Part shown: positions 1-15,003 of the stretch, piece after piece | Numbering within the stretch: the first letter of the stretch is position 1 | Layout: every line of letters starts with the position of its first letter | Source: Actinomycetota bacterium | GTDB lineage: Bacteria > Actinomycetota > Acidimicrobiia > Acidimicrobiales > Microtrichaceae | DNA length: 17,082 nt | NCBI GenBank assembly: GCA_018268735.1 | Contig: JAFDWA010000009.1 | Span: 1-17,082, forward strand | Direction of reading: 5' to 3' | Program-made: the position numbers and the translations under genes | The notes under the pieces: generated by a model | Databases searched by the model: none | What the model was told of the DNA's origin: nothing | The model's input: the letters and a program-made list of their open reading frames with translations, nothing else

Positions 1-1355
1 TGATCGTGGTCGTGGTCGTGATCGTGGTCGACGGGTCGAAGGTACTGCTCGTCGATCGGCGCGCCGTCGGGGTCGACGACCTCGGCGTGCTCGACCAGCC
101 ACTCGATGGCCTTGTCGGCGGCGATGTCGGAGCGTACCGCCGAGAGCTGCCCGTTGCTCCGAAGCTGCTCCCGGGCTTCCTCGAGGGTCAGCTCGGCGTC
201 CCCGATCATCCCGGCGACCACCTCGTCGACCTCGTCGTCGGAGGCCTCGAGTCCCTCCGCTGCCACGACGGCACGGATCGCCAGATCGACCTTGACGCCC
301 TCCTCTGCAGCCGAGCGCAGCGAGGCGGTGAACTCCTCCGGGTCCTGTCCGGTCACCCGGAGGTAGTCGTCGAGGCCGACGCCCTGCTGCTGCAGCCGCA
401 TCATCATGTTCTGCAGGCGCAGCTGCATCTCCGTCGCGATCAGCGATTCAGGGATGTCCTCGTCGACCAGCTTGGCGAGCTCGTTGCCGGCACGGGTCCG
501 CACGGCGGCACGGGTCTGGCGCTCACGGGTCTCGGCGAGGCGACCGCGCGTGTCGTTGCGGAGCTCTTCGACCGTCTCGAACTCGGAGGCTTCCGCAACC
601 CACTCGTCGGTCAGCTCGGGCAGGACCCGCTCCTTGACCTCCTTGACGAGCAGGCGGAACTCGACCTCGTCCTCGTCGGGGTCGGGAGGCTGCGCCGAGA
701 ACTCGAGGATGTCACCGACCTTCGCGCCGGTCAGGTGCTCGTCGAACTCGGAGGCGATCATCCCGGAGCCGACCGCGTACAGGTAGTCGTCGGCGGTGAG
801 GCCGTCCACCTCCTCGCCGCCCTGGCTCCCGTGGATGTCGATCGTCACGTAGTCGCCCTCACCGGCAGGATGATCCACCGTCTCCAGCTCGCCGTACTGC
901 GCTCGGAGCCGATCGATCTGCTCGTCGAGCTCCTCATCGGGCACATCGGGGCTCGGCACCTCGATGCGCAGTCCGCCGTAGCCGGCGACGACCACGGTCG
1001 GGCGGATGCCGACGATCGCTGTGAAGGTCACGTCGCCCTCGTCGCGACCATCGGTGATGTCGAGCTCGGGTTGTGCGATCACGTCGACGTCGTTGCTGAT
1101 CACCGCGTCGCTGTAGAACTCCGGCAGGGCACGGTTCAGCGCTTCGGACCGCGCGTAGCCGGTGCCGAGCTGCTTCTCCATCAGCGCTCTCGGCGCCTTC
1201 CCCGGTCGGAATCCCGGGATTCGGACCTCCCTCGCGATCTCCTTCCAGGCAGCCGCGATGGCGGGTTCGAGCTCGGATTCGTCGATCTGGACGACGAGCT
1301 TGACCTTCGGCTCCAGGTCGGGGGTGTCGGGAACGGGTTCGAGCGTGGCTTTCAC
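1..1355 (-). CDS. tig: Trigger factor (ribosome-associated chaperone/PPIase), 3' end outside window
   Basis: This gene encodes trigger factor, the chaperone that docks at the ribosome exit tunnel and assists nascent-chain folding. Read from a GTG start at 1355, the frame stays open to the window edge, giving about 451 codons without a stop. The N-terminal domain carries the ribosome-binding signature GFRPGKAP at residues 48-55. An FKBP-like region follows (about 155-240, including GDYVTIDI and VGDILEF), then a helical C-terminal domain rich in Glu, Arg and Gln (about 250-425). The last visible residues are an unusual alternating Asp-His run (PVDHDHDHDHD), which may bind metal; that role is inference. 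The GTG has only a weak Shine-Dalgarno sequence. A TAGGCT hexamer lies 6 nt upstream, so a near-leaderless transcript is possible. The gene is divergent from tRNA-Pro. The family call is very secure; the tail function is unknown. Confidence 0.94.
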   Translation of the reverse strand, partial: MKATLEPVPDTPDLEPKVKLVVQIDESELEPAIAAAWKEIAREVRIPGFRPGKAPRALMEKQLGTGYARSEALNRALPEFYSDAVISNDVDVIAQPELDITDGRDEGDVTFTAIVGIRPTVVVAGYGGLRIEVPSPDVPDEELDEQIDRLRAQYGELETVDHPAGEGDYVTIDIHGSQGGEEVDGLTADDYLYAVGSGMIASEFDEHLTGAKVGDILEFSAQPPDPDEDEVEFRLLVKEVKERVLPELTDEWVAEASEFETVEELRNDTRGRLAETRERQTRAAVRTRAGNELAKLVDEDIPESLIATEMQLRLQNMMMRLQQQGVGLDDYLRVTGQDPEEFTASLRSAAEEGVKVDLAIRAVVAAEGLEASDDEVDEVVAGMIGDAELTLEEAREQLRSNGQLSAVRSDIAADKAIEWLVEHAEVVDPDGAPIDEQYLRPVDHDHDHDHD

Positions 1356-1458
1356 AGGGACGGGAGCCTACTGCCGCACCGCTGCCCCCTCCCCATCGCC
1401 GAGGACGGACAGCGCACACGGCGTCGACGGGCTCGCCAGCCGGTAGCCTCCCCGCCCA

Positions 1459-1532
1459 CGGGACGTGGCGCAGCCTGGTAGCGCACCGGCTTTGGGAGCC
1501 GGGGGCCGCGAGTTCGAATCTCGCCGTCCCGA
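1459..1532 (+). tRNA. tRNA-Pro (anticodon TGG)
   Basis: A full cloverleaf is visible. The acceptor stem CGGGACG (1459-1465) pairs with CGTCCCG (1525-1531), with discriminator A1532. The D arm is GCGC/GCGC. The anticodon stem is CCGGC/GCCGG with loop TTTGGGA, which puts anticodon TGG at 1493-1495. The T arm is GCGAG/CTCGC with loop TTCGAAT. The 3' CCA is not encoded. Its 3' end, from the T stem to just past the discriminator, is the integration target of the mobile element: the same 23 bp recur at 10566-10588. The gene stays intact because the element restores its 3' end. A TAGCCT hexamer at 1444-1449 could be its -10 box, but no convincing -35 box is seen. Confidence 0.96.
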
Positions 1533-1533
1533 C
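1511..1533 (+). repeat. attL core (inside tRNA-Pro 3' end)
   Basis: Twenty-three bases, beginning AGTTCGAATC and ending GTCCCGAC, are identical to 10566-10588. They cover the T loop, the T stem 3' strand, the acceptor 3' strand and the discriminator. Just beyond the core, both copies continue with ACATCG and then CCCGAG, but with different small gaps (left GACATCGACAGCCCGAG, right ACATCGCCCGAG). Weak similarity therefore reaches past the exact core. Confidence 0.93.
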
Positions 1534-1603
1534 GACATCGACAGCCCGAGTCGCCTGCAATGGCAAGGATCGGCGATCGGGCAGCTGAGCCACCGAGGCC
1601 CCT

Positions 1604-1622
1604 GCGGTCACGTTCCGGTCAC
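1604..1622 (+). promoter_or_regulatory. Left integrase arm-type sites (two GGTCAC repeats)
   Basis: GCGGTCAC (1604-1611) and CCGGTCAC (1615-1622) are spaced 11 bp apart, about 71 bp inside the attL core and overlapping the integrase stop codon. The same motif occurs three times in the same orientation near attR (10428-10458) at 12- and 11-bp spacing. Matching, helically phased short repeats flanking both core sites are what arm-binding sites of lambda-type integrases look like. No binding data can be seen here. Confidence 0.6.
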
Positions 1623-2792
1623 ATCTCCCCACCCGGCCGCCACGATCAGCGCCGACACGGCATCGGCATGGTGAGCCTCCAGCCTCGGCACGACATGGGC
1701 GTAGATGTCGCCGGTGATGGCGATGGACTCGTGGCCCAACCTGGCCGAGACGACTTCCAGCGGGACGCCCGCTTCCAGCGCCAGCACTGCGTACGTGTGC
1801 CGGGCATCGTGCAGCCGAATCTTCGGCAGGCCCATCCGCTTCAGTCGTCGGTCGTATTCACGGCTCACGTGCTTCGGATGCAGGGGTGAACCATCGGCCA
1901 GCGTGAACACGAGGCCGGTGTCGGGCCACCCCGCACCTATACGCAGCCGGTCGGCCGCCTGGCGCTTCCGCTGCACCTTCAACGATGCGACGAGCTCCGG
2001 TTGAAGCCGGATCGAGCGTCGGGACCTCGACGTCTTCACCGTCTCCTGTTCGATCGGTTGAGCACCGACCATCACGATGGATCGACGGATGGACACCTGG
2101 CCGGCTTCGAGGTCCACGGCATCCCATTGCAGGCCGAGCGACTCCCCTCGTCGACATCCGGTGAGGAACAGCAACGTCCACAGTGGCCCGTACCGGCCAT
2201 CCCGTTCGGCGTTGAGGAACGCCGCCACCTGCTCCCCGGTCCACGTCGACATCGGGCGCCTGCCTGACGCCTTGATGCTCGGCGGATCGGCCGACGTCGC
2301 CGGGTTCACTCGTATGAGTCCCGCCTTCACGGCATCACCGAGCGACTTGGACATCACCGAGTGGATGTGGCGCACCGAAGCCGCTGACAGACCGGCGGTC
2401 GCCTTGTCCGAATAGAGGCGATTCAGGACGACGGCATTCACCTGTGATAGTCGCATGTCGCCCACCTTCGGGATGATGTGCAGCCGGGCCGTCCGACGGT
2501 AGAAGTCCACAGTGGCCGGCTTCAGTCGCCCGGGTAGCGAGTCGAGCCACGTCGTCAGCCATGATGCGACCGTTGGATCGGGGCCGAGCGTGAGTCCACC
2601 GGTGTGGACGTCGTGGCGCAAGCGGTCCAGTTCCAACCGTGCCGCCTTCCGGGTTGGGAAGCCTCGGCGTCGAACCTGCCGACGTTGCCTCCAGTTCCCT
2701 CCGGTGTCGTAGCCGGGACCGGCATCGAACACGAACCCCCACGTGCCGGTCGTCTCGTCCTGCTTCGGGCCACCGTTCGCTGATCGCTGCAT
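1608..2792 (-). CDS. int: Tyrosine recombinase (phage-type integrase)
   Basis: This 394-residue site-specific recombinase presumably drives integration and excision at tRNA-Pro. The N-terminal part (about 15-70) resembles an arm-binding AP2-like domain, with basic GNWRQRRQVRRRGF and TRKAARLELDRL. A SAM-like core-binding domain spans about 72-170. The catalytic domain spans about 185-385 with all expected residues: Arg214 in TGCRRGE, Lys253, His328 and Arg331 in HDARHTY, His354 in RLGHE, and nucleophile Tyr364 in DIYAHV. Length is typical. It reads toward tRNA-Pro and ends 75 bp from the attL core; its last codons overlap the left GGTCAC repeats. The ATG at 2792 is the only good start. The upstream 394-bp region carries dyads that could control it. 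Function is secure; the target site is deduced from the att duplication. Confidence 0.96.
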   Translation of the reverse strand: MQRSANGGPKQDETTGTWGFVFDAGPGYDTGGNWRQRRQVRRRGFPTRKAARLELDRLRHDVHTGGLTLGPDPTVASWLTTWLDSLPGRLKPATVDFYRRTARLHIIPKVGDMRLSQVNAVVLNRLYSDKATAGLSAASVRHIHSVMSKSLGDAVKAGLIRVNPATSADPPSIKASGRRPMSTWTGEQVAAFLNAERDGRYGPLWTLLFLTGCRRGESLGLQWDAVDLEAGQVSIRRSIVMVGAQPIEQETVKTSRSRRSIRLQPELVASLKVQRKRQAADRLRIGAGWPDTGLVFTLADGSPLHPKHVSREYDRRLKRMGLPKIRLHDARHTYAVLALEAGVPLEVVSARLGHESIAITGDIYAHVVPRLEAHHADAVSALIVAAGWGDVTGT

Positions 2793-2894
2793 CAGCCATT
2801 GATGGCGCGCTCAAGTCTCGGCGTCAACGGTTCCGGGGACATCGTCACGGACTGAATGCCTGGCTATCGACCCGACCGATCAGTGAGCGCTGTA

Positions 2895-2915
2895 CGGATC
2901 ATCCCGGCTGATCCG
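2895..2915. promoter_or_regulatory. Perfect 7-bp inverted repeat upstream of int (candidate operator)
   Basis: CGGATCA (2895-2901) and TGATCCG (2909-2915) form a perfect inverted repeat around a 7-nt spacer TCCCGGC, about 103 bp upstream of the integrase start. The arm centres are 14 bp apart. This suits a dimeric DNA-binding protein, possibly one of the element's HTH proteins. The role is inference. Confidence 0.4.
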
Positions 2916-3014
2916 AGCGGTCATGTCCTCAATGAAATGCTGGGAAGTCGCCCGACCTGATGCAGTTACGTGCCCCGATTCAAGCTGCAGGAGCGATGCA
3001 CTCATCCGTTCAAC

Positions 3015-3074
3015 TGTGGATGATCCATCAAGAATGGCTCACAAATCCACACCTTGTCCTCCTTGAAGTCCACA
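3015..3074. promoter_or_regulatory. Cluster of three DnaA-box-like 9-mers
   Basis: TCATCCACA on the minus strand (3015-3023) differs from the TTATCCACA consensus at one position. AAATCCACA (3043-3051) differs from it at two, and AAGTCCACA (3066-3074) differs at two from the TTGTCCACA form common in actinobacteria. Three such 9-mers within 60 bp in a lower-GC region suggest host DnaA binding, either as an auxiliary origin or as control of int/xis. The match is modest. Confidence 0.35.
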
Positions 3075-3121
3075 GGTGTATTCACGGATGGTCGATCGGA
3101 ACAGTTCAGCACGAGATAGCT

Positions 3122-3165
3122 CAAGTGTTGGCGTGTATCACTTGGATCGAATCCACCGGATCGAA
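3122..3165 (+). promoter_or_regulatory. Dyad plus direct repeats upstream of the xis-like gene
   Basis: CAAGTG (3122-3127) and CACTTG (3139-3144) are perfect inverted arms with an 11-nt spacer. Directly after them GGATCGAA occurs twice (3144-3151 and 3158-3165), 14 bp apart. The cluster ends 21 bp before the HTH gene's ATG, which fits an operator or an excisionase-type binding array. No clear -35/-10 pair is visible. Confidence 0.4.
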
Positions 3166-3186
3166 CAGCACAGGCGGAGCAGCACC

Positions 3187-3414
3187 ATGAGCATCCCGAA
3201 CCCCATCGACGTCCCGGCGCTGACCGTTGATGAAGCCGCCGACTTCTACGGCATCGGGCGAGCCGCTGCGTACGCCGGATGCAACACGTACCTCGCCACC
3301 GACGGCGCCGAAGGGATCCCGTGCATCCGGGTCGGCCGCTTCATCCGGGTGCCGACCGCTGCCATGCGAGTGCACCTCGGCATTGATCGACTCCCGCAGG
3401 ACGAGAGCTCCTGA
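3187..3414 (+). CDS. Small excisionase-like helix-turn-helix protein
   Basis: A 75-residue protein with the layout of MerR/excisionase-type winged HTH proteins. LTVDEAADFYGIGRAAAYAG (residues about 12-31) supplies the recognition helix. IPCIRVGRFIRVPTAAM (about 44-60) supplies the wing-strand-helix segment that sets the DNA contact. Such proteins act as recombination directionality factors or regulators in actinobacterial integrative elements. The ATG at 3187 follows GGCGGAG with suitable spacing, so it is preferred over the longer frame starting at 3076. The position between int and the replication gene supports a xis or regulatory role. There is no experimental evidence, and it could instead be a regulator of the replication gene. 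Confidence 0.75.
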   Translation: MSIPNPIDVPALTVDEAADFYGIGRAAAYAGCNTYLATDGAEGIPCIRVGRFIRVPTAAMRVHLGIDRLPQDESS

Positions 3415-3453
3415 TGGGACACCAGAGCGGGCGGGAGTGGTTCCCCGCTTGCA

Positions 3454-3521
3454 CACCCCTTCGGTCGGGGTGCTTGGCGGCCACGGCCGGCGGAGCGGGC
3501 ATACCTGACGCCCCGCCGGCC
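3454..3521. promoter_or_regulatory. Two stem-loops in the leader of the replication gene
   Basis: The 224 bp between the HTH gene and the replication ATPase hold no convincing gene. CACCCC (3454-3459) pairs with GGGGTG (3467-3472) around TTCGGTC. Then GGCCGGCGG (3485-3493) pairs with CCGCCGGCC (3513-3521), a perfect 9-bp stem with a 19-nt loop. A competing GCGGG/CCCGC pairing exists inside it (3495-3499 with 3512-3516). These could be a terminator for the upstream gene or a structured leader that limits replication-protein synthesis. There is no T-run after either stem. Confidence 0.4.
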
Positions 3522-3638
3522 TGGCTTCCGCCTGAACCACTGACTGCCAAGCCTCGACGACCGAACGGAACCATCCCGTGTATGACTGCTCACGCCGTGC
3601 CCTCCTGACCGTCGCCGCCTTCGTGGAGTTGGACTCCG

Positions 3639-5069
3639 ATGGCTGACGCACTCGCCGAACGTCAGGCGAAGATCAAGGCCCAGATGCGCCGGACCGGTGG
3701 CGAACTGAAACCCGTCGAGTTCAGCGACCCTCATGCGGGCCACAGCGACGCAGGCGAGGCATTCGACCGTCTACCTCCAGTGGAGATCGAAGGTTCCGAC
3801 CTTCCACCTCCACCTGAGGTCGACTACGTGCCCGAGCCCGTCCCGCTGGCGGCCTACGAGCAGGCCGCTGAGGCGAAGTCGGAGCGGTCGGAGCCACGTC
3901 GCACGGTGGTGCTCACCAGCGCCGACTCGATCGAACCCGCTCGGGTCCACTGGCTCTGGACCGGCCGACTGGCGGTCGGCACGCTCGGTCTGCTCGCCGG
4001 CCGTGAAGGCCTCGGCAAGAGCACCTTCGCCTACTGGCTCACCGCCCGCATCACCCGTGGACAGCTCGATGGTGAGCACCACGGCGAAGCCCGCCCCGTG
4101 CTGGTGTGCGCCACCGAGGACTCCTGGGCGCACACGATCGTGCCCCGGCTCATCGCTGCCGACGCCGACCTCGCCCTCGTGCACCGGGTGGAGGTGACCG
4201 CCGACGGGTTCCACGTCGGGCTGTCGGTGCCCCGTGACCTGCATGAGCTCGGTCGTGCCGCCGAGCAGACCGGCGCAGCGATGCTGCTCCTCGATCCGCT
4301 GATGTCCCGGCTCGACGGTGCGCTCGACAGCCACAAGGACGCAGAAGTGCGACGGGCGCTGGAGCCGCTCGTGGCCTTCGCCGACGAGTGGCACCTGGCC
4401 GTGCTCGGCCTCATCCACCTGAACAAGGGCGGCGCCGTCGACGTGCTCGACCGGGTGATGGGATCCAAGGCGTTCGCCGCCGTGGCTCGATCCGTCAGCG
4501 TCGTGACCCTCGACCCGGACGACGAGACTGACACCCGACGCCTGTTCGGCACGCCGAAGAACAACCTCGGCCGGACCGACCTGCCGTCGATCGTCTTCAC
4601 GGTGCAGGGCGCCGAGGTGGACACGAGCGAGGGTCCGACGACCACTGGGACCGTGGCCCTGCTCGGCGAGTCGGCGACCACCGTGCAGGACGCTGTCCGT
4701 CGCTCGGGTGAGGACTCCGAGGTCCGCACTGCTGTAGGTGAGGCCGTCGACTGGCTCGCCGACTTCCTGCACGACGTCGCCAAGCCGGCCAGCAGCAAGG
4801 ACGTGAAGGCCGCAGCCAAGGCTGCCGGGATCTCCGAGGACGCGCTCAAGCGAGCTCGCCGCAAGCTCGGTGTTGAGGTCGAACCCAGGGGCTTCCCCAG
4901 AGTGACCTACTGGTCACTCTCCGCAGTCGGGGCACAGTCAGGTGATCAGTCGTGGGGAGACCACCCGACTGCACTCACTCACCCAACTGGACAGTCGGGG
5001 CAGTCGGTGCAGTCAGGTGGTGTCTCCCGGGATGAGCACCCCACTGACGACGAAGGGCTGCCGTTCTGA
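3639..5069 (+). CDS. RepA/AAA_25-like RecA-fold ATPase, probable element replication protein
   Basis: This 476-residue protein has a RecA-fold ATPase core like plasmid RepA hexameric helicases and the AAA_25 family. The Walker A motif GREGLGKST lies at residues 121-129. The Walker B strand AMLLLDPLM lies at 214-222, with Asp219. LAVLGLIHLNKGG (253-265) looks like the motif 3/sensor region. A C-terminal winged-helix segment (about 386-427, SSKDVKAAAKAAGISEDALK) may bind DNA. The N-terminal 90 residues are polar and probably disordered. The last 45 residues are a low-complexity Gly/Ser/Gln/His-Pro tail whose DNA contains iteron-like CAGTC repeats. ATG 3639 follows GGAG at 3625-3628. The gene sits directly before the iteron array, supporting a role in origin opening or helicase action. 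Exact biochemical activity is inferred. Confidence 0.85.
   Translation: MADALAERQAKIKAQMRRTGGELKPVEFSDPHAGHSDAGEAFDRLPPVEIEGSDLPPPPEVDYVPEPVPLAAYEQAAEAKSERSEPRRTVVLTSADSIEPARVHWLWTGRLAVGTLGLLAGREGLGKSTFAYWLTARITRGQLDGEHHGEARPVLVCATEDSWAHTIVPRLIAADADLALVHRVEVTADGFHVGLSVPRDLHELGRAAEQTGAAMLLLDPLMSRLDGALDSHKDAEVRRALEPLVAFADEWHLAVLGLIHLNKGGAVDVLDRVMGSKAFAAVARSVSVVTLDPDDETDTRRLFGTPKNNLGRTDLPSIVFTVQGAEVDTSEGPTTTGTVALLGESATTVQDAVRRSGEDSEVRTAVGEAVDWLADFLHDVAKPASSKDVKAAAKAAGISEDALKRARRKLGVEVEPRGFPRVTYWSLSAVGAQSGDQSWGDHPTALTHPTGQSGQSVQSGGVSRDEHPTDDEGLPF
4899..4920. repeat. Perfect 9-bp-arm palindrome at the start of the candidate origin
   Basis: AGAGTGACC (4899-4907) and GGTCACTCT (4912-4920) are exact inverted arms around the loop TACT. 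The palindrome lies inside the 3' coding end of the replication gene, 4 nt before the first CAGTC iteron. A perfect 22-nt dyad within coding sequence is unlikely to come from codon choice alone. It may bind the replication protein or a regulator, or form a hairpin. Confidence 0.6.
4924..5018 (+). repeat. Iteron set A: six direct CAGTC-type repeats within the 3' end of the replication gene
   Basis: CAGTCGGGG, CAGTCAGGT and CAGTCGTGG start at 4924, 4935 and 4947. CAGTCGGGG, CAGTCGGTG and CAGTCAGGT start at 4992, 5001 and 5010. An inverted CAGTCGGG lies at 4964-4971 between the two triplets. Spacing is 11 and 12 bp in the first triplet and 9 and 9 bp in the second. The encoded peptide (such as GQSGQSVQSG) is low complexity, so the repetition looks selected at DNA level. 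This is the typical look of replication-initiator iterons, but binding is unproven. Confidence 0.65.
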
Positions 5070-5129
5070 TGGGCGCCCTCCGTCGGCGACGTATTTCACG
5101 ATCAACGGAGCGACGTCCTGATGGGCGCC
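5066..5129 (+). repeat. 12-bp direct repeat pair between the two iteron sets
   Basis: CTGATGGGCGCC occurs at 5066-5077, spanning the replication gene's stop codon, and again at 5118-5129. The copies are 52 bp apart (about five helical turns) and flank a slightly AT-richer patch containing GTATTTCACGATCAA. Their position between the iteron sets suggests they belong to the origin. Confidence 0.5.
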
Positions 5130-5134
5130 GTTTT

Positions 5135-5261
5135 CGCTACTCGCCCCGCTACTCGCACCCTTCCGAGAATCCCGCTACTCGCTCACTGCTCGCACTGCTC
5201 GGAAGCCTGCAAACCCGCTACTCAGCCGCTACTCGGTCCTGCTCGACCAGGCCACTACTCG
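5135..5261 (+). repeat. Iteron set B: CGCTACTCG repeats downstream of the replication gene
   Basis: Exact CGCTACTCG copies lie at 5135-5143, 5147-5155, 5173-5181 and 5227-5235. One-mismatch copies lie at 5216-5224 (ending A) and 5253-5261 (starting CA). Two head-to-tail CACTGCTCG variants fill 5184-5192 and 5193-5201. Start-to-start distances are 12, 26, 11, 9, 23, 11 and 26 bp, mostly near one or two helical turns. The region (5070-5357) has no plausible gene. Direct repeats on one helix face, next to a RepA-like gene, are the hallmark of an iteron-controlled origin. Confidence 0.72.
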
Positions 5262-5268
5262 CCAGTGC

Positions 5269-5283
5269 CCCCTCTAAGAGGGG
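5269..5283. repeat. 15-bp palindrome closing the iteron region
   Basis: CCCCTCT (5269-5275) and AGAGGGG (5277-5283) are perfect inverted arms around a single A. The palindrome follows the last CGCTACTCG-type repeat by 7 bp and precedes the TerS-like gene by 74 bp. It may be an operator for the downstream operon or part of the origin. Confidence 0.45.
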
Positions 5284-5357
5284 CAGTGGGGAGTGACAAG
5301 CGAGCAGCGGCACCCCCGAATCGACACCCCGAACATCTCCCCGTAGGAGGCCCATCC

Positions 5358-5882
5358 ATGACCGCCAACACACGACTCACCGACGACGAGCGCCGCAACA
5401 TCATCGACATCCTCACCGAAACCGAGAACGTCGCCGAGACAGCACGACGTACCGGACGATCCGCCTCCACCGTCAGCCTGCTCGGACGCCAACACGGGAT
5501 CAACGTCGCCGCACGGACGAGGACGGCCCGCGCCTGTGAAGCCGCCAAGCTCGACGCCGCCGCCCGCCGTGCCACCCTGGCGCTCGGCTTCCTCGACGAT
5601 GCCGAACGTCTCCGTGCCCAGCTGTTCGCCCCGATGGTCGTGACCGAGCTGGCCGGCAAGATCGCCGCCCACGTGCAGACCGAGGTGACCGAGCCGTCGC
5701 CGTCCGACAAGCGGGCCCTGATGAACGCCGCCACCTCGGCGGCTCGTTCGGCGATGGAGCTCGACCGCCACGACCGGACCCCCGATGCCGGTAGCGAGAT
5801 CCCGATGCTCGTGCAGTTCGTCGACGGGTTGCGTGCCGTCGCCGACGAGTCGGACCGTGACGAGCCGGGAGCGGTGGCATGA
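5358..5882 (+). CDS. HTH protein resembling actinophage small terminase/HTH proteins
   Basis: A 174-residue protein. Residues about 8-50 (LTDDERRNIIDILTETENVAETARRTGRSASTVSLLGRQHGI, described by its ends) form a homeodomain-like HTH. The rest is an Arg/Ala-rich helical region followed by a C-terminal part with AMELDRHD and MLVQFVDGLRAVADE. This arrangement recalls actinophage proteins annotated as HTH or terminase small subunit. I recognise it from pattern memory, not a search. The ATG at 5358 follows a strong GTAGGAGG. It is the first gene of an operon in which each next start overlaps the previous stop by 4 bp. If it is TerS-like, the element could redirect a helper phage's packaging. It could equally be a plain regulator. 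Confidence 0.6.
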   Translation: MTANTRLTDDERRNIIDILTETENVAETARRTGRSASTVSLLGRQHGINVAARTRTARACEAAKLDAAARRATLALGFLDDAERLRAQLFAPMVVTELAGKIAAHVQTEVTEPSPSDKRALMNAATSAARSAMELDRHDRTPDAGSEIPMLVQFVDGLRAVADESDRDEPGAVA

Positions 5883-6172
5883 GCGACGACGAGCGGAAGG
5901 TGAAGCCGAACCCCATCCTGTGCAGCTACCTCAACAAGCGGGACCGTACGATCGTCGGGCTCGCCCTCTACGCCATGAGCCACCTGCTCGGCGACATGGA
6001 CTCCGAACAGGTAGCCGCCTTCGGCACCTCGCTGGCCGTCAAGTCGGCCGGGCACGGCCTGATGTCCTTCGACGAGCTGTACGGGATGCCGCCCGACGAA
6101 GCGTTGAGCCTGTTCGGCGACCGGGCGGCCGCCCTCAACGACATGCGCCGCCAGATCGACGGGGGACCGTGA
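5879..6172 (+). CDS. Hypothetical protein, 97 aa
   Basis: A 97-residue protein of no family I recognise. It begins with a basic stretch (SDDERKVKPNPILCSYLNKRDR) and continues as a probably helical, soluble domain with YAMSHLLGDMDSEQVAAF and SFDELYGMPPDEALSLFGDRAAALNDM. It has no signal peptide or membrane segment. Its ATG overlaps the stop of the HTH/TerS-like gene (ATGA) and its stop overlaps the next GTG, so translation is probably coupled. The context makes it an accessory partner in the same operon. Confidence 0.75.
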   Translation: MSDDERKVKPNPILCSYLNKRDRTIVGLALYAMSHLLGDMDSEQVAAFGTSLAVKSAGHGLMSFDELYGMPPDEALSLFGDRAAALNDMRRQIDGGP

Positions 6173-6687
6173 GACGTTCCAGCTTCCCGCTGGCCCCGAT
6201 CGTCGCCATCATCGGCGTGAAGGCCACGAGGGCCGCTCTGGTCGCCTCACGCACCGGGAAGCCGACCGACGGCGGCCTGGCGTTCTGTGAACGGATCGGC
6301 GTGCCTCCCCGCCGCCTCGCCGCCCTGCTCGACCCTCGTTGCGGCGAGTTGACGTTCTGGGAAGCCGACACCGCAGCCTGTCGGATTGGACTGCATCCGA
6401 TGCTCGTCTGGCCGGACTGGGGCGACACCGACGACGGCTTCGACGAGCCGTCGGACGCCGTTCCTGTGACCGTCGATGTGACCGCCGACGATCCCCGAGA
6501 CCTTGAACCGTTGCAACGTCAGGGATCCGACGCCGACATGTCACGAGAGTGGGAATTACACCCCGCCCCCGAACAGGTCTCTGACGTCCGCATTCGACCC
6601 CACCTGAATCCGACCCCGATGACATCTACCGAACCGACGAACGACGCCGGTACCGACGCACCGCCACCGGAGGATCGACCACGATGA
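6169..6687 (+). CDS. Putative small HTH-type protein, 172 aa
   Basis: The GTG start overlaps the previous stop (GTGA). The first about 85 residues look like a compact helical DNA-binding module seen in actinobacterial mobile elements. CERIGVPPRRLAAL is a possible recognition-helix region, and TAACRIGLHPMLVWPDW matches the recurring 'RIGxHPxxVWPDW' ending I associate with such proteins. The second half is acidic, then Pro/Thr-rich and probably disordered (VTVDVTADDPRDLEP onward). A longer frame upstream is rejected because it would overlap the neighbouring gene extensively. Function is unassigned; a regulatory role is plausible. Confidence 0.68.
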   Translation: MRRSSFPLAPIVAIIGVKATRAALVASRTGKPTDGGLAFCERIGVPPRRLAALLDPRCGELTFWEADTAACRIGLHPMLVWPDWGDTDDGFDEPSDAVPVTVDVTADDPRDLEPLQRQGSDADMSREWELHPAPEQVSDVRIRPHLNPTPMTSTEPTNDAGTDAPPPEDRPR

Positions 6688-7082
6688 CCGCACCGCCCCG
6701 AGAGTTCGACCGCACCGACGACGACGGCATCATCGTGCCCGTCGAGCTGACGGGCCCGCTCGCCACCCTGATCCACGAAGCGCTCCCACGTCTCGCCGCC
6801 GACTACGGATGTCCGCTCCGATGGTCCGACGAGTTCCATTCGTTGAAGGTCGCCCTGATCGCTGCTGCACAAGGTGCGCCCCGACCGATGGCGAAGGTGC
6901 CACCACGTCGCACCGTGACCACCGACGAGGCCGCCACGATGATCGGCGTCAACCCGTCGACGATTCGCCGCATGATGCAAGCCGGACGCATACCCGATGT
7001 CGTGGTGACCGAACACGGGCGACGAATCCCCGAACGATGGGTGATCGACGAGGTCGACCGACGAGACCGCTCCCGGACCTGA
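6684..7082 (+). CDS. Excisionase/MerR-family helix-turn-helix protein
   Basis: A 132-residue protein with a C-terminal HTH_17-type domain at about 78-123. TVTTDEAATMIGVNPSTIRR carries the helix-turn-helix, and GRIPDVVVTEHGRRIPERWVIDE the wing and following helix. The N-terminal 70 residues form a separate small domain (GIIVPVELTGPLATLIHEALPRLAAD). The ATG overlaps the previous stop. The element thus carries two unrelated excisionase-like HTH proteins, one near int and this one in the operon. One may be the directionality factor and the other a transcriptional switch. The HTH assignment is firm; the role is inferred. Confidence 0.75.
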   Translation: MTAPPREFDRTDDDGIIVPVELTGPLATLIHEALPRLAADYGCPLRWSDEFHSLKVALIAAAQGAPRPMAKVPPRRTVTTDEAATMIGVNPSTIRRMMQAGRIPDVVVTEHGRRIPERWVIDEVDRRDRSRT

Positions 7083-7208
7083 TGCACGCCACGTGCGCTC
7101 CACCGGTGCCGTCGCGATTCACTCGGCATCGGGTAGCCGTTCCATCGGTTCCGGGCGCTGCATGTCGTACTGACGGAGCGGCCACCCATCGACGAATCGA
7201 GGACCGCC

Positions 7209-7397
7209 ATGGGTGCCACCGTCAGACTGCTCGAAGCCGAAGCGCAGCGCTCCGAAGCGCTCATCGAACGCATCGACGCCGAGATCGTCAACGGCTCCGA
7301 ACGGGTCACCCTGTCGGACCTCGCCACTGCCACCCGATCAGGCGACTTCGCCCGCAGTCGAGCCGAAGCGCTCCGCACCCGACAGGAGACACGATGA
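7209..7397 (+). CDS. Small coiled-coil-like protein, 62 aa
   Basis: A charged, Ala/Glu/Arg-rich helical protein (VRLLEAEAQRSEALIERIDAEI, then VNGSERVTLSDLATATRSGD). It begins at an ATG preceded by GAGGA and heads a second overlapping operon after a 126-bp gap. The pattern ERI-x(n)-G-x(2,3)-VT-x2-D-x3-A recurs near the N terminus of the protein at 7606-8316 (DERIAAGDNAVTATDII), so the two may be related helical modules. No known function. Confidence 0.62.
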   Translation: MGATVRLLEAEAQRSEALIERIDAEIVNGSERVTLSDLATATRSGDFARSRAEALRTRQETR

Positions 7398-7609
7398 CCA
7401 CCCCGACGCCGTTCATCCCGAAGCCCGGCGAGCTGTTCGACGACGAGGAGGCCGCAGCGCTCACCGTCGAGATGTTCGCCGAGCTGACCTACCGCCGCCT
7501 CATCGCCCTTCAGGCCGACTACCCGGCGATCTACGAAGCACTCGAAGCCGGCAAGGCGAACCCTGGAGTCGACGACTCCGACGAGACGGACCAGGGAGAC
7601 GACAAGTGA
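7394..7609 (+). CDS. Small acidic hypothetical protein, 71 aa
   Basis: A soluble acidic protein (GELFDDEEAAALTVEMFAELTYRRLIALQADYP, described by its ends) with an Asp-rich C terminus (VDDSDETDQGDDK). The ATG overlaps the preceding stop and the stop overlaps the following GTG, so it is translationally coupled in the middle of the operon. I recognise no family. Confidence 0.7.
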   Translation: MTTPTPFIPKPGELFDDEEAAALTVEMFAELTYRRLIALQADYPAIYEALEAGKANPGVDDSDETDQGDDK

Positions 7610-8316
7610 GCAAGCACCAGTCCCCGAACCCGAACGAGATCGCCGACGCCGAAGCGGCCTACACCGACGCAGTCGCAGCCCGGGCCAACCTCGACGAGCG
7701 GATCGCCGCCGGAGACAACGCCGTCACCGCCACCGACATCATCGAAGCCGATGCGCTCATCGCAACCCGCAACGTCGAGCTGGACACGGCCCGACGTCTC
7801 GCCGGGATCCGTCGTGACATCGCAGCCGAACAGGACGCATCCGAAGCCCTCCGTACGCAGTGGGCCGAGCTCGGCAGCGCACTGCCGGCTCACGTCGACG
7901 CCATCGCCGACGCATTCGACTCCGCCGTCGTCGCCCTCGAAGCGCTGAACCTGGCAGTCGTCGACTACAACGGCGACGCCAACGCTCGACGGTCCGGCAT
8001 CGTCGCCGCCGCCACCGGTGCCCGTGTCATGTTCCGAGACGAGCGAGGTCTACCGATCCCCGGTGACACCTCCGTCGCCGGCATCGACTGGCAGGCCATC
8101 GACTGCATCACCAGCACGCTGGAACCCGTGGACCTCCCCGCCATCACGAGACAGGCCATCGACGTCGCCGGGTCCAAGTTCGCGCCCGGACCGAACACGC
8201 CGCTGATCGTCGATCTACCTCACCGTGACAAGGCAGCCGGGACGATCGAAGCCGTTCAGCACAAGCTGGAAGCCGACCCCTACGGCGGACAGGCCGTTGC
8301 GTCTCTGCTCGGATGA
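7606..8316 (+). CDS. Hypothetical helical protein, 236 aa
   Basis: The GTG start overlaps the previous stop (GTGA). Residues about 8-120 are predicted helical and coiled-coil-like: repeated Ala/Glu/Arg heptads, EAAYTDAVAARANLDERI, and ARRLAGIRRDIAAEQDASEAL. The C-terminal part (about 135-236) looks more globular, with VMFRDERGLPIPGDTSVAGIDW and FAPGPNTPLIVDLPHRDKAAG. It has no membrane segment or signal peptide. Its N-terminal motif is shared with the 62-aa protein at 7209. It resembles scaffold-like small-phage proteins only in general helical character, which is not enough to assign a role. Confidence 0.75.
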   Translation: MSKHQSPNPNEIADAEAAYTDAVAARANLDERIAAGDNAVTATDIIEADALIATRNVELDTARRLAGIRRDIAAEQDASEALRTQWAELGSALPAHVDAIADAFDSAVVALEALNLAVVDYNGDANARRSGIVAAATGARVMFRDERGLPIPGDTSVAGIDWQAIDCITSTLEPVDLPAITRQAIDVAGSKFAPGPNTPLIVDLPHRDKAAGTIEAVQHKLEADPYGGQAVASLLG

Positions 8317-8322
8317 CGTCCC

Positions 8323-8700
8323 GTGTCGCCTCACCACCGGAGCGCCTGCACCCTGTGCGGACACGCCAGTGCTCTCGGATGGTGGGGCGACCCGAACCTG
8401 ACCCACTGCCGGGGATGCTGCGCCTCCTGGCGGATGTCCTCGAACATCGCACACTGCCCGCAGTGTCACGAGACGTTCACGTCCCCCTCCGCCGCTGACC
8501 GCCACCGCCGAGACGACCGATGCACACCACCTGCCGACGTCGGGCTCGTACCACTGCGAAAGCGCCTCAGCAGCGTTCCCGTGTGGGGTCCGCCCCCAAA
8601 GGTGCCGGAAGGGCCTTGCTCGTCTCTGAGCACGGTTATGCCGGGTCCTGAGGGCATTCTGGCTACAAGCGCCTGCCGGAGTGTCGCACCATCGGCGTAG
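8323..8700 (+). CDS. FDXHR-like putative zinc-binding protein
   Basis: A 125-residue protein with closely spaced metal ligands: Cys9-x2-Cys12, Cys29-x2-Cys32 (plus Cys33), then Cys45-x2-Cys48 followed by His61 and Cys67 (HCPQCHETFTSPSAADRHRR). The last block matches the small actinobacterial/actinophage proteins called FDXHR family, except that the FD of the hallmark is replaced by AD (ADRHR). A GTG start at 8323 lies 6 nt after the previous stop. The ATG at 8313 in another frame overlaps that stop but gives a non-zinc translation and is rejected. The C-terminal half, after a Trp-Gly-Pro segment, is low complexity. The family call rests on remembered motif shape. Confidence 0.7.
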   Translation: MSPHHRSACTLCGHASALGWWGDPNLTHCRGCCASWRMSSNIAHCPQCHETFTSPSAADRHRRDDRCTPPADVGLVPLRKRLSSVPVWGPPPKVPEGPCSSLSTVMPGPEGILATSACRSVAPSA

Positions 8701-8709
8701 CGTCCGGGC

Positions 8710-8877
8710 ATGGTGGTCGTCTACCTACCCGACAACTGGGATGACCTCGACGACGCTGCACGCCTCCGGTGCGCACGCCGTGAGGGATACAGCACCGTCG
8801 AGGACTTCGTCGCCGCTGCCGAGTGGACGACGTTCGTGATGAACCGCCCGCCCGACTACCCGTACATCATCGACTGA
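8710..8877 (+). CDS. Small hypothetical protein, 55 aa
   Basis: The frame from ATG 8710 to TGA 8877 encodes MVVVYLPDNWDDLDDAARLR followed by ARREGYSTVEDFVAAAEWTT and ends in PPDYPYIID. Composition is protein-like (strand, acidic turn, amphipathic helix, aromatic tail). A TAG 9 nt upstream of the ATG fixes the start. No clear Shine-Dalgarno is present, so it may be leaderless or weakly expressed. It is convergent with the minus-strand cassette and overlaps its last small frame by 11 bp. Unknown function. Confidence 0.5.
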   Translation: MVVVYLPDNWDDLDDAARLRCARREGYSTVEDFVAAAEWTTFVMNRPPDYPYIID

Positions 8878-8980
8878 GCGACACCACCGGGCCCTGACCG
8901 ATGTACCGGTCCGCCGCATCCAGTCCATCGAGGATGACACCGACGCCACCGCGGGCGGCTAGATGCAGGCCGGCTAGCAC
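8867..8980 (-). CDS. Possible 37-aa microprotein ending the minus-strand cassette
   Basis: GTG at 8980 is preceded at ideal spacing by AGGAGG (on the minus strand) and encodes VLAGLHLAARGGVGVILDGL followed by DAADRYIGQGPVVSLSR. The strong ribosome-binding site is the main support. Two even smaller frames (9083 to 9036, and 9039 to 8974) link it to the 146-aa gene by overlapping GTGA and stop codons, which could be coupling or chance. It overlaps the convergent 55-aa gene by 11 bp. Confidence 0.35.
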   Translation of the reverse strand: MLAGLHLAARGGVGVILDGLDAADRYIGQGPVVSLSR

Positions 8981-9079
8981 CTGCTCCGCCTCCTGTAGGC
9001 GAGGACACCGGTCGCACCTATCGGATACCGGCCGGTCACGAAGCGCAGGTGATGACGACCCCGGCGGCCCCCGCCGTGC

Positions 9080-9520
9080 TCACGACGTCTCCGGCTGGTC
9101 GAACACCTTCAAGCCGCCCGGCTGGATCGACGCCGGATCCATCGAGAGACGCCCGCCTTCCTCCTCGGCCCACGACAGGCGCAGTGGATCGGTGAGCGTG
9201 GACGAGTCGACGCCGAACGCACCGCCGCCCCGATGCGTCTCGATCAGCGCCCCATCACAGGTATCGCTGTAGCGGACAGCGACGACGGCATGACCATCGG
9301 CAGCGTGCACCACAGCATGAGCTCCCGGACCTTGCACCTGGATCTCCGACTCGTACCGTGTGGCGTGAGTAGTGATCCGCTCCGTTCCGTCCTCATCGAC
9401 GATGACGAGCCGGCGCAGCCTCAGCTCCGCCTCACCTGACCGCAGGTGGTCGACGACCTCCCGCAGTTCGGCCAGCTCAGCCCGCAGTCCGTCGATCGTT
9501 GCCTGTTCCGACGTGTTCAC
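9080..9520 (-). CDS. Hypothetical protein with N-terminal coiled coil, 146 aa
   Basis: The N terminus (about 5-36, IDGLRAELAELREVVDHLRS) is a clear heptad coiled coil that could dimerise or tether. It is followed by a beta-rich domain (LRRLVIVDEDGTERI, EIQVQGPGAHAVVHAADGHA, VAVRYSDTCDGALIE) and a polar C terminus. There is no signal or membrane helix. The GTG start overlaps the stop of the upstream 68-aa gene (GTGA). It is the largest protein of a leftward cassette that runs opposite to the element's other genes. No family is recognised. Confidence 0.68.
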   Translation of the reverse strand: MNTSEQATIDGLRAELAELREVVDHLRSGEAELRLRRLVIVDEDGTERITTHATRYESEIQVQGPGAHAVVHAADGHAVVAVRYSDTCDGALIETHRGGGAFGVDSSTLTDPLRLSWAEEEGGRLSMDPASIQPGGLKVFDQPETS

Positions 9521-9723
9521 GATGTCACCGCTTCCAGTCGTCCCCGCCGCAGGATCGACGCCGCCAGGCCCATGACGTCGATCGACTGATCCGACCCGCC
9601 GAGCGCCATCATCTCGACACGGGCCGACTCCAGCTCGTCGGCAAGCTCGGCGTGCTCGGCCGTCACACGGCCCAGGATGCGCTCGATCACGTCGAGCCGT
9701 GCCTCGACCGCTGCGCCGGTCAT
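9517..9723 (-). CDS. Small coiled-coil protein, 68 aa
   Basis: ATG at 9723 overlaps the stop of the 56-aa gene, and the stop overlaps the next GTG. The protein is a nearly continuous charged helix (VEARLDVIERILGRVTAEHA, then ELADELESARVEMM) followed by a short helix (IDVMGLAASILRRGRL). It may pair with the coiled-coil N terminus of the next gene product; that is inference from shape and gene coupling only. Confidence 0.65.
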   Translation of the reverse strand: MTGAAVEARLDVIERILGRVTAEHAELADELESARVEMMALGGSDQSIDVMGLAASILRRGRLEAVTS

Positions 9724-9890
9724 CGGGCGACCTCCGCCGCCTTGACCGCCACGCGGCCGATCAGGACGCCGTGCCGCTCGACGTTCAGCATCCGGTCCCG
9801 ATCCCATGCCGGAGTGAACGGCCGGCCGCTCGGATGGGCGCACTCCGCAGCGATCAGCTTCGCCGCCCGTAGCTTCGCTAGCGTGAACAT
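9720..9890 (-). CDS. Small basic protein, 56 aa, first gene of the minus-strand cassette
   Basis: ATG at 9890 follows an excellent AGGAGGT at correct spacing, which decides the start over longer frames. The product is basic and compact (FTLAKLRAAKLIAAECAHPS, then GRPFTPAWDRDRMLNVERHG, ending IGRVAVKAAEVAR). No family is recognised; DNA or RNA contact is possible from its charge. A strong stem-loop lies 29 bp upstream of the start. Confidence 0.65.
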   Translation of the reverse strand: MFTLAKLRAAKLIAAECAHPSGRPFTPAWDRDRMLNVERHGVLIGRVAVKAAEVAR

Positions 9891-9918
9891 CGTCGGGACC
9901 TCCTGGGGTTCCGTCCAC

Positions 9919-9947
9919 GCCCGGGGATGTTGTCTCATCGCCCGGGC
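9919..9947 (-). promoter_or_regulatory. Stem-loop in the leader of the minus-strand cassette
   Basis: GCCCGGGGATG (9919-9929) and CATCGCCCGGGC (9936-9947) pair over 11 bp with one bulged base around the loop TTGTCT. It lies between the two divergent transcription units (9891-10069), upstream of the AGGAGGT site. It could be an operator or an attenuating leader hairpin. The remainder of this 179-bp gap holds no convincing gene. Confidence 0.45.
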
Positions 9948-10030
9948 ACCTTCGTCGTTGCCGAGTCCATGATGAGCGCGCCGGGGACCGTCCTGGCAAG
10001 AGGGAAGTTCGGCCTGCATGCGGACGAGCG

Positions 10031-10050
10031 CCGGGTGAAGGCGCACCCGG
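10031..10050 (+). promoter_or_regulatory. Perfect 7-bp inverted repeat before the last element gene
   Basis: CCGGGTG (10031-10037) and CACCCGG (10044-10050) are exact arms around AAGGCG, 19 nt upstream of the GTG start at 10070. Location and size fit an operator that could silence the rightmost gene, or a leader hairpin. Confidence 0.42.
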
Positions 10051-10069
10051 GACTCGATCGGCGGGCGTC

Positions 10070-10567
10070 GTGAGCACGGCCCTCGCACTCCCCGAGCCGC
10101 AGTCGCTCGCCCAGGTCTCGGAGCTGTGTTCCGCCGCCGTGGCGTGGGCGGAACAGCAGGACTCCATCCCGGTCATCCGTGAATGCATCAACCGGCTGGC
10201 CGCCATCAACGAGTACCTGAGCCGCACGTCTCGTGACGGCCGGGCCGAGGTCGACACGGCGATGCGTCGGATGGAGCAGCGGATCGGGGTGCTGATCGGG
10301 AAGGCGACGGCGAACGGCAAGGGCCTGGAGTTCCGCAAGCTCGCCGAGCATCCCGACATCGTCGACGAGGTCATCGCCGAATCCACCGACGCAGCGCCAC
10401 CGTCCCGTCGGACCCTCTCAACCGCCTCCGGTCACGGATCCGGTCACAAACCGGTCACAACGGACCGCTACGGGGCGACATCGGGACATCGGGCCGAGTG
10501 CCGAAACCCGCTAGATTCCGCAGGAAACGCCATCGGGGCGACCGGACCGACACCAGCCGAGCAGTAG
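10070..10567 (+). CDS. ParB-partner/plasmid-type helical protein ending at attR
   Basis: A 165-residue protein. The N-terminal 110 residues contain AAVAWAEQQDSIPVIREC and NEYLSRTSRDGRAEVDTAMRRMEQRIGVLIGKA. This layout recalls the small helical proteins found beside plasmid and phage ParB- or regulator-type genes in actinobacteria ('AVAWAE...RAERRxGELL'). The similarity is remembered, not searched. The C-terminal 45 residues (GHGSGHKPVTT onward) are low complexity because the DNA there carries the CCGGTCAC repeats. The TAG stop straddles the first two bases of the attR core, so the gene runs exactly to the element's edge. The GTG has only a weak ribosome-binding site. Confidence 0.6.
   Translation: MSTALALPEPQSLAQVSELCSAAVAWAEQQDSIPVIRECINRLAAINEYLSRTSRDGRAEVDTAMRRMEQRIGVLIGKATANGKGLEFRKLAEHPDIVDEVIAESTDAAPPSRRTLSTASGHGSGHKPVTTDRYGATSGHRAECRNPLDSAGNAIGATGPTPAEQ
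10428..10458 (+). promoter_or_regulatory. Right integrase arm-type sites (three CCGGTCAC repeats)
   Basis: CCGGTCAC starts at 10428, 10440 and 10451, spaced 12 and 11 bp, about 108 bp inside the attR core. The orientation matches the two copies near attL. An 8-bp tandem ACATCGGG (10478-10493) follows. The density of this 8-mer here is far above what single copies elsewhere in the window would predict. Best explained as integrase arm sites on the second arm of attP. Confidence 0.62.
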
Positions 10568-10588
10568 TTCGAATCTCGCCGTCCCGAC
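10566..10588 (+). repeat. attR core (duplicate tRNA-Pro 3' end)
   Basis: Identical over 23 bp to 1511-1533, but not preceded by the remainder of a tRNA gene, so this is the fragment left by insertion. It ends 15 nt before the ATG of the host hydrolase gene. Confidence 0.93.
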
Positions 10589-10603
10589 ACATCGCCCGAG
10601 CTC

Positions 10604-12823: not shown

Positions 12824-13620
12824 ACCGGGGCTCGGACCCGCAACCGATCTCTCCGCACGACCACGGCGGACCCCTCTGGTGGGACCCGCTGTCGGTCCGC
12901 CCCGACCAGGTGAGCACCGAGACGATCCCGGTCCTCGCGACGATCGGGGTGCTCGTCGGCTCGAACGTCATCGCCAACGAGGTGCTTCCATCGTGGCTGT
13001 ACATCCCGTGGAACATCGCCGTGGCGACGACGCTCGTGTGGGTCGCCCGCCGATTCGGTCGATGCTCGATCGACGAGCTCGGCCTGTCACCTCGGCGTGC
13101 AGCTGCCGGGGCGAGGTGGGGAGGGGTGGCTGCCGCTGCGGTCGTGTGCGTCGGCGTCCTCGGCGCGCTCCTGCCGCCGACGAGGGACCTCTTCCACGAC
13201 GAGCGGGCACGAGACCTGACCTTCGTCGGGCTCCTGGTGCACGTCGGCATCGAGATCCCGATCGGTACGGTGCTCGCCGAGGAGACCATGTTCCGTGGGG
13301 TCCTCCCGGCGATGTTCCGGCGACGGTTCGCGCACCGACGGAGCTGGGCGGTCAGGGCCGATGTCGCAGCGGCGCTGCTCTTCGGGCTCTGGCACGTGCT
13401 GCCGTCGCTCGACCTCGCGGCGAGCAACGCGGTGCTGCAGCACCTGCCGTTCGGTCTGGGGACCCCGGTCGCGATCGTCGGCAGCGTCGTGGCGACCGCA
13501 TGCGCCGGGCTCGGGTTCACGTGGCTTCGCAACCGCTCCGGCAGCCTGCTCGCGCCGATGCTGCTGCACTGGGCGATCAACGGCACCGGACTCGTCGTGG
13601 CATGGGTCGTGCAGCACTGA
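12820..13620 (+). CDS. CPBP-family (CAAX/Abi-type) intramembrane metalloprotease
   Basis: A 266-residue polytopic membrane protein with the CPBP signature. The EE-x3-R motif is EETMFR (Glu154, Glu155, Arg159). The F-x3-H motif is FGLWH (His192), and the last helix has H-x3-N in HWAIN (His250, Asn254). About six to eight hydrophobic helices are visible between residues 35 and 264. The family includes CAAX-type prenyl proteases and bacteriocin-immunity/abortive-infection-like proteins; the substrate here is unknown. The GTG start overlaps the hydrolase stop (GTGA), which argues against longer upstream starts and suggests co-expression with the hydrolase. Confidence 0.9.
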   Translation: MNRGSDPQPISPHDHGGPLWWDPLSVRPDQVSTETIPVLATIGVLVGSNVIANEVLPSWLYIPWNIAVATTLVWVARRFGRCSIDELGLSPRRAAAGARWGGVAAAAVVCVGVLGALLPPTRDLFHDERARDLTFVGLLVHVGIEIPIGTVLAEETMFRGVLPAMFRRRFAHRRSWAVRADVAAALLFGLWHVLPSLDLAASNAVLQHLPFGLGTPVAIVGSVVATACAGLGFTWLRNRSGSLLAPMLLHWAINGTGLVVAWVVQH

Positions 13621-13693
13621 GCTTGCGGAACCGAGCCTGCGGGAGAGGGCGAGCTGCGAGCGACGAGGAGCGGGGCGACCGACCTGCGCGGGA

Positions 13694-14158: not shown

Positions 14159-14196
14159 CTCCGCTCCACCGGCGCTCGCGTCGCCGGTGCAGCGCG

Positions 14197-14988: not shown

Positions 14989-15003
14989 GCGCCAAGGGTA
15001 GTA

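Follow-up and report, generated by a model that had tools for sequence, protein, structure and literature searches.

A candidate replication origin inside the repA gene of an actinobacterial integrative element, and a separate repeat array next to it

The window analyzed here is a stretch of 17,082 nucleotides from an Actinomycetota bacterium of the Microtrichaceae (GenBank assembly GCA_018268735.1, contig JAFDWA010000009.1, positions 1 to 17,082), and it contains an integrative element of about 9 kb, bounded by exact 23-bp direct repeats at a tRNA-Pro gene. The element encodes a RepA-like ATPase (gene repA, 3639-5069), and a series of CAGTC repeats, which we call array A (4924-5014), lies within the 3' end of this gene, just past the codons of a winged helix. 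Judging from sequence comparisons, array A is probably a replication origin that lies within the very gene encoding its initiator. RepA would be a helicase-type ATPase of the RecA fold, the winged helix of which would recognize 9-bp repeats, of the form CAGTYRNNN in this clade. The repeat clusters would stand in opposite orientations around a short centre containing GGGGAG, and binding in the two orientations would put helicase rings on either side of this centre, where replication would start. The repeats would be found among the final 50 codons of repA because the unstructured tail encoded there tolerates many peptides. The steps of this scheme that we infer are recognition of the repeats by the winged helix, unwinding, loading of the helicase, and replication once the element has been excised.

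The original prediction had a single layered origin extending over 385 bp (4899-5283) beside the ATPase gene. All the repeats it listed are present, i.e., six CAGTC copies, six CGCTACTCG-type copies with two variants, a pair of CTGATGGGCGCC copies, and two palindromes. Yet 4899-5069 is the 3' coding end of the ATPase gene itself, and the 385 bp hold two different things, an origin being well supported for the CAGTC family via its relatives. The CAGTC copies, six forward and one reverse, occupy the final ~50 codons of repA, and array A as a whole has a spacing of 9-12 bp with both orientations represented. Three CAGTYR copies at 9-bp spacing occur a single time in the 2.93-Mb assembly, at 4992, where ~0.005 occurrences are expected under equal base frequencies.

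The expected conservation in homologous elements was found for array A in kind, whereas array B, the second array described below, is not conserved as far as searched, and neither is the palindrome that opens the stretch. There are 94 loci matching repA, seven of them with an incomplete region; 80 were scanned for inverted pairs of 6-mers in the 220 nt tested after the winged helix, and 54 remained after removing near-duplicates. In 32 of these 54 distinct loci, versus ~2.7 expected, inverted pairs place the region within the top 5% of its own locus, and when direct pairs are added the tail region is in the top 5% in 29 of the 54. Among seven loci added later, four reach the 5% level for inverted pairs. 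Repeats in both orientations also follow repA in two of three plasmids, L017 (Streptomyces) and pCG2 (Corynebacterium); after the repA of plasmid L018 there is one strong hairpin only. A motif containing GGGGAG stands between the arms in the window and in L051, L002, L036, L044, L045 and L143, in more than one reading frame.

Other observations on these loci concern the form and position of their repeats. Over 18 CAGT loci, the fifth base is C in 61 and T in 15 forward copies, and C in 35 and T in 27 reverse copies (Fisher p = 0.003, with relatedness ignored). Three viral contigs of 6 to 75 kb (L048-L050) carry a large array outside coding sequence, 3' of repA, in which TGATACCACT repeats run in both orientations, and L006 and L007 have in common clusters of CTAGCGGC / CCGCTAGC in both orientations, 1.0-1.4 kb past the winged helix.

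Array A is very probably a nucleic-acid feature. In a control limited to tails of at least 40 codons, synonymous-codon shuffles are exceeded at the 5% level by 28 of 39 coded tails in inverted pairs, by 24 in direct pairs and by 32 in their sum; the window is not among the 28. Coded CAGT repeats occur in frames 0, 1 and 2. The CAGT sites lie entirely past the stop codon in L008, L012 and L043, as do all forward sites in L004, and six of seven forward sites and both reverse sites in L037. The RepA family is large (1296 proteins, with E-values up to 1e-30, among 7996 candidates scored), and the tails of its best 120 matches were examined, 114 of which could be parsed. Many of the 120 are repetitive directly after the winged helix (QSVQSVQS, VGAVGAVG, VVPVVP, SRDSRD), and these peptides adjoin T-rich stretches (e.g., TALTAPTG), frequently with RGD or WGE in between. 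The tripeptide [RW]G[DEGA], a self-chosen pattern without a control, is present in the first 70 residues of 100 of the 114 parsed tails. At the DNA level, the loci examined show such tails to be CAGTYRNNN repeats read in differing frames; the Q/V/S peptides correspond to one orientation, and the T-rich stretches mostly to the opposite one. It could be argued that array A merely encodes a peptide tail of low complexity (such as QSGQSVQS or TALTAPT) and has no function as DNA, given that the window tail is predicted to be disordered and is not significant against synonymous shuffles. The 28 coded tails that do exceed such shuffles, the use of all three frames and of non-coding positions, and the matching of arms within elements make this very improbable.

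This matching of arms shows that the repeat sequence is private to each element. The test was anchored on CAGT[CT] only, and required at least two forward and at least one reverse CAGT site per locus. Comparing positions 6-9 of forward and reverse copies, similarity is 0.631 within an element and 0.373 between elements, a difference reached in 0 of 5000 permutations (26 loci have 40% identity or more, and 17 of them were usable). Over all 61 loci, 20 of them usable, the values are 0.653 and 0.384 (0 of 5000). An earlier, partly hand-picked set yielded 0.647 and 0.388 with 18 of 24 loci, after L033, L042, L050, L021, L011 and L144 were dropped for having too few CAGT sites; this set omitted L145-L147 and had L149 (36% identity) added by hand, and the test on 17 of 26 loci repeats it without hand selection. 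More distant relatives bear other repeats, for instance of the AAGGTG or TGAGCA, the CCTTAA and the CCGAAG type.

Across loci, the similarity of the repeats also follows the identity of the winged helix. With the ATPase corrected for, the partial correlation is 0.20 (0 of 3000 permutations, 58 of 61 loci), and it is 0.25 on 53 of 60 loci, while the reverse partial correlation, of the ATPase given the winged helix, is 0.02 (58 of 61 loci). Since the repeats track the winged helix beyond ATPase identity, with shared descent only partly controlled, this points at the winged helix as their likely reader. In the structure model of RepA, which was built on a 22-sequence alignment and has a predicted template modeling score (pTM) of 0.57, a RecA-type core is followed by a winged helix-turn-helix (wHTH) at residues 365-426 and a low-confidence tail at residues 431-476. 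The winged helix is confidently modeled, with block means of 83-90 over residues 371-430, and the predicted local distance difference test (pLDDT) of the tail is 30-35. Foldseek matches the core to RAD51, DnaB and RSF1010 RepA, with template modeling (TM) scores by target of 0.57-0.59 for 1olo and 1nlf. A profile search of PDB sequences yielded no match for RepA, and in Pfam it matches PF13481 alone, with no match to DUF927, D5/Primase_Cterm or Rep_3. In viral contigs no relative was found with the single RepA sequence as query, whereas the alignment as query did find relatives.

If array A acted as RNA instead, it would be a hairpin in the repA messenger, e.g., an attenuator, a terminator or a stability element. 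A self-chosen 55-nt inverted part of the array does form a stable RNA fold (-26.2 kcal/mol, z = -3.96, matched by 0 of 200 shuffles), yet the whole 96-nt array folds no better than its shuffles (z = -0.69, matched by 50 of 200), and a hairpin has no need of direct copies inside one arm. Moreover, arrays are found past the stop codon too, deviations from pairing on the messenger strand show no G-U bias (G-U 3.7% versus A-C 8.4%, mean of 18 loci), and the only Rfam matches above threshold in the window are two tRNAs. We consider such a hairpin highly unlikely, and retain the reading of array A as an embedded origin.

Several results nevertheless weigh against this reading. In the shuffle test suggested along with the original prediction, the outcome for array A depends on word length: five CAGTCG copies, counting both strands, are reached in 0.9% of shuffles, and this fraction varies from 0.5% to 39%. 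The array is not significant against synonymous-codon shuffles (0.122 for inverted pairs, 0.098 for the sum), nor for inverted pairs alone within its own 4.4-kb locus (0.183), where direct and inverted pairs together yield 0.006. Given that it does not go beyond synonymous shuffles, the window array is a degenerate member of its kind. Among the relatives, inverted pairs stay below the 5% level in 22 of the 54 loci, including phage Rando14 (L020) and plasmid L018, and in L144, L146 and L147 of the seven added loci; plasmid L017 misses this level in the 220 nt tested, its repeats being slightly further on. The DNA of one of 84 matching phage records (Rando14) and of three of 12 matching plasmid records was examined. 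GGGGAG is found in 10 of the 54 loci overall (~3.7 expected) and, where identity is 43% or higher, in 6 of 19 (~1.0 expected). Repeat similarity correlates with the ATPase alone as well (r = 0.21, 0 of 3000), and among the 18 CAGT loci it is weakly linked to the winged helix (r = 0.12, 533 of 5000; partial 0.23, 75 of 5000). Finally, no strong A+T-rich element was found by the window arrays: array A has a maximum of 44% A+T in a 25-bp stretch, and the segment between the arrays listed in Table 1 is a weak candidate for unwinding. Of 59 loci, 20 have a tail of 26 residues or fewer, and in 9 of these the tail region shows an A+T peak ranking in the top 5% for its locus; the same is true of 2 of the 39 with longer tails. 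As intergenic DNA tends to be A+T-rich, however, the peaks in short-tail loci add little to the case for an origin.

Array B is a real site, separate from array A. It lies within the gap from repA to the start of the gene of a helix-turn-helix (HTH) protein assigned to phrog_5536 (5358-5882). For this array the shuffle test bears out what was expected, as five copies of CGCTACTC are reached in 0 of 2000 dinucleotide shuffles of 5070-5283, and in 0 to 0.3% of shuffles at other word lengths. No other 8-mer cluster in the window is as dense, 60 simulated elements never having more than three copies, and a close pair of CGCTACTCG occurs in the 2.93-Mb assembly in array B only. No relatives with CGCTACTCG repeats were found among the loci and viral DNA searched. 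An exact-pattern search of IMG/VR returned 52 stretches, none of which has, within the DNA obtained for it, a tblastn match to repA or to the 5358 gene, two weak integrase matches being the only ones; three of the 52 hold several matches of the pattern, in two cases (L095, L136) within 12-bp-periodic repeats. A second distinct repeat family within ~500 nt was found, at the threshold used, at only two other loci of the 54. These are a Micromonospora and a Salinispora locus (L005, L008), with a TGTCAACGC type repeat ~160-250 nt past the winged helix, downstream of the CAGT array; L008 has the additional repeats GGCCTCTA and GCCCTCAC.

Array B could be read by the phrog_5536 protein or by RepA. 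In the former case it would serve the HTH protein, a possible small terminase subunit, as an operator or as a pac site for packaging, and the element would be a phage satellite in which the signals for replication and packaging adjoin one another. The array is directly 5' of the HTH gene, and that gene has eight related proteins including its own product, with seven phage records; two of these proteins, P0122 and P0123, are 77% and 58% identical to the window protein. One such relative is the last gene in the record of Streptomyces phage PapayaSalad (Austintatiousvirus), in which the large terminase gene is the first, and this neighborhood suggests that the phrog_5536 protein is a terminase small subunit. 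Weak matches to small terminases exist in the family, for the phage protein with phrog_57 (3.9e-4) and for P0126 and P0127 with phrog_1206 (4.8e-5 and 3.3e-3). However, the window protein itself has no terminase match, phrog_5536 has no assigned function, and no terminase-like fold was found for its low-confidence model (best E-value 0.46). Upstream of the phage relative there are two-copy direct repeats only and no array like array B, which itself was found in no relative. Relatives of the 5358 gene were found in one of 99 genomes, the window's own, and in none of the viral contigs by pattern. We consider an operator or pac site possible but less likely than not.

The same degree of doubt applies to array B being a second initiator contact or a copy-number control site of the same replicon. 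It adjoins array A, and its inverted copy across the closing palindrome resembles the layout of array A. In addition, GTGGGGAG is common to both arrays (at 4952 and 5286, out of four occurrences in the window on both strands), and L005 and L008 also have their second, TGTCAACGC type repeat. On the other hand, array B is unrelated to CAGTYRNNN, is in no relative found, and second families are exceptional among the 54 loci.

The two palindromes of the predicted origin fared differently. A functional 22-nt palindrome at 4899-4920 is rejected, since perfect 9-bp arms are at chance level (three observed, versus 1-7 per simulated 17 kb) and the arms at its position have at least three mismatches of nine in 17 of 17 relatives. 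The palindrome closing array B is present, but it is imperfect and extends to 5294 rather than 5283. The coordinates of these and of the other features are presented in Table 1.

Table 1. Features of the integrative element and of its two repeat arrays (window coordinates; a dot marks features without a strand).
Feature	Position	Strand	Remarks
tRNA-Pro(TGG)	1459-1533	+	presumed integration target; attL core in 3' end; ARAGORN, Rfam
attL core, 23 bp	1511-1533	+	exact direct repeat of 10566-10588
tyrosine integrase	1608-2792	-	PF00589, 9.1e-20
small HTH_17 protein, excisionase/regulator type	3187-3414	+	PF12728, 1.4e-4, under curated cut-off; scan began at 3190
RepA-like AAA_25 ATPase	3639-5069	+	PF13481, 3.2e-25; structure model; core of RecA/DnaB/RSF1010-RepA type
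array A, first forward cluster	4924-4955	+	CAGTC at 4924, 4935, 4947
centre motif GTGGGGAG	4952-4959	+	window form of the GGGGAG-containing motif between arms
array A, inverted cluster	4965-4989	-	GACTG 4967-4971; AACTG 4985-4989 (CAGTT-type)
array A, second forward cluster	4992-5014	+	CAGTC at 4992, 5001, 5010; 9-bp spacing
12-bp repeat CTGATGGGCGCC, copy 1	5066-5077	+	spans the repA stop codon
most A+T-rich 25 bp examined within 4890-5360	5089-5113	.	52% versus element mean of 33%; weak unwinding candidate between arrays
12-bp repeat CTGATGGGCGCC, copy 2	5118-5129	+	
array B, CGCTACTCG repeats	5135-5261	+	exact at 5135, 5147, 5173, 5227; variants with one mismatch at 5216, 5253 and with two at 5184, 5193
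imperfect palindrome closing array B	5257-5294	.	15-nt arms, 87% complementary; holds GTGGGGAG at 5286
inverted array B copy CGAGCAGCG	5301-5309	-	one mismatch; absent from the original prediction
HTH_38 / phrog_5536 protein	5358-5882	+	gene immediately 3' of array B
attR core, 23 bp	10566-10588	+	exact direct repeat of 1511-1533

The remaining genes of the element encode small proteins, mostly without a family. One of these, an HTH protein at 6684-7082, has an excisionase-type match (phrog_66) and is a second excisionase candidate of the element; its HTH matches PADLOC mad1 (5.6e-7). An open reading frame (ORF) at 10070-10567 terminates at the attR core, and a 17-bp exact tandem duplication lies beyond the element, at 16830-16863. 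The gene on the right flank was located in three of 12 relative genomes, where 4.9-5.0 kb each contained neither a tRNA nor the att core; an empty site that would confirm the element boundaries was thus not found in these three.

Regarding the class of the element, scans of its proteins in Pfam, PHROGs and NCBIfam found no FtsK/SpoIIIE transfer protein, a few ORFs below ~180 amino acids being outside the Pfam scan. Hence, assignment to the actinobacterial integrating conjugative elements (AICEs) in the published sense is unsupported. In terms of satellites of the phage-inducible chromosomal island (PICI) type, an integrase and a replication gene are present, and the tentative terminase call for 5358-5882 comes from phage neighborhood and weak matches of relatives, without support from the fold.

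A more far-reaching proposal joins the two arrays. Array A would represent an origin class of its own, with a helicase initiator of the RecA fold, an origin in a disposable tail, whatever the reading frame, or shortly past the stop codon, and matched pairs of repeats and winged helices that diversify together, while array B would be the packaging or control site of the HTH gene, in an undescribed actinobacterial phage satellite. We regard this combination as unlikely. If it were true, each element would have a private origin, and 385 bp would hold both replication and packaging signals. 

The main reading of array A, if right, has consequences of its own. The 3' tails of AAA_25 repA genes could be used to locate the unannotated origins of many integrative elements, phages and plasmids, and the repetitive C-terminal peptides of many RepA relatives would be explained. 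Matched pairs of repeats and winged helices would constitute a data set on the joint change of specificity of initiator and origin, and would predict the compatibility of elements within one cell.

Among known replication systems, RSF1010 RepA shares the fold of the ATPase core with the window RepA. RSF1010 RepA is not known to have a winged helix fused to it, and a separate protein, RepC, binds the repeats of its origin.

The published accounts compared below are cited for selected sections only. Iteron plasmids of the Rep_3 type have mostly direct repeats in helical phase (PMC5043065), while the window has no Rep_3 match and a spacing of 9 to 12 bp in both orientations. The origin of mycobacterial prophages has been suspected to lie in repA or adjacent to it, with no repeats seen and with a RepA of 320-350 residues, according to the sections cited (PMC7157519). 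Descriptions of embedded origins in this AAA_25 family were not recognized in searches of the open-licence PMC literature. AICEs, as presented in the cited sections of PMC3218068, likewise combine an integrase with a replication module in actinobacteria, but differ in the FtsK/SpoIIIE transfer protein, which was not found among the window proteins scanned. Some RepA relatives carry Prim-Pol (PF09250), as in AICEs with RepPP/Prim-Pol replication, whereas the window protein is an AAA_25 ATPase with no Prim-Pol match. No system comparable to the window's is described in the sections cited for the PICI-like element (PLE) and Mulch/Flayer satellites (PMC7145576, PMC10690885).

In phage lambda, the origin is inside gene O and has four 19-bp repeats next to an A+T-rich segment of 40 bp, and the O protein brings in the helicase with the help of P (PMC4488673, as far as cited here). 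The window is alike in that candidate RepA-binding repeats (4924-5014) are inside the initiator's own gene. It differs in having 9-bp repeats at the extreme 3' end of that gene, no clear A+T-rich segment, and an initiator with a helicase-type fold.

The origins of Staphylococcus aureus pathogenicity islands (SaPIs) lie directly 3' of the helicase gene and are recognized by the C-terminal domain of the Rep helicase, and the C-terminal domain of Cch2 from the staphylococcal cassette chromosome mec (SCCmec) binds the putative origin in vitro (PMC7581432, in the sections cited). These element-borne proteins resemble RepA in combining a helicase domain with a DNA-binding domain at the C-terminal side, which in RepA is a predicted wHTH, and their short-repeat origins sit where the initiator gene ends, as do the repeats of array A. 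Nonetheless, the SaPI and SCCmec helicases are of the DUF927 or D5/Primase_Cterm type, whereas the window RepA is an AAA_25 protein with a RecA fold, and their origins are downstream of the gene, whereas that of the window would be inside the coding tail and, in some relatives, past the stop codon. By analogy, the RepA module may work like the SaPI/SCCmec Rep-origin module without being a member of it, and, within the sections cited, this Rep system would be its nearest tested precedent.

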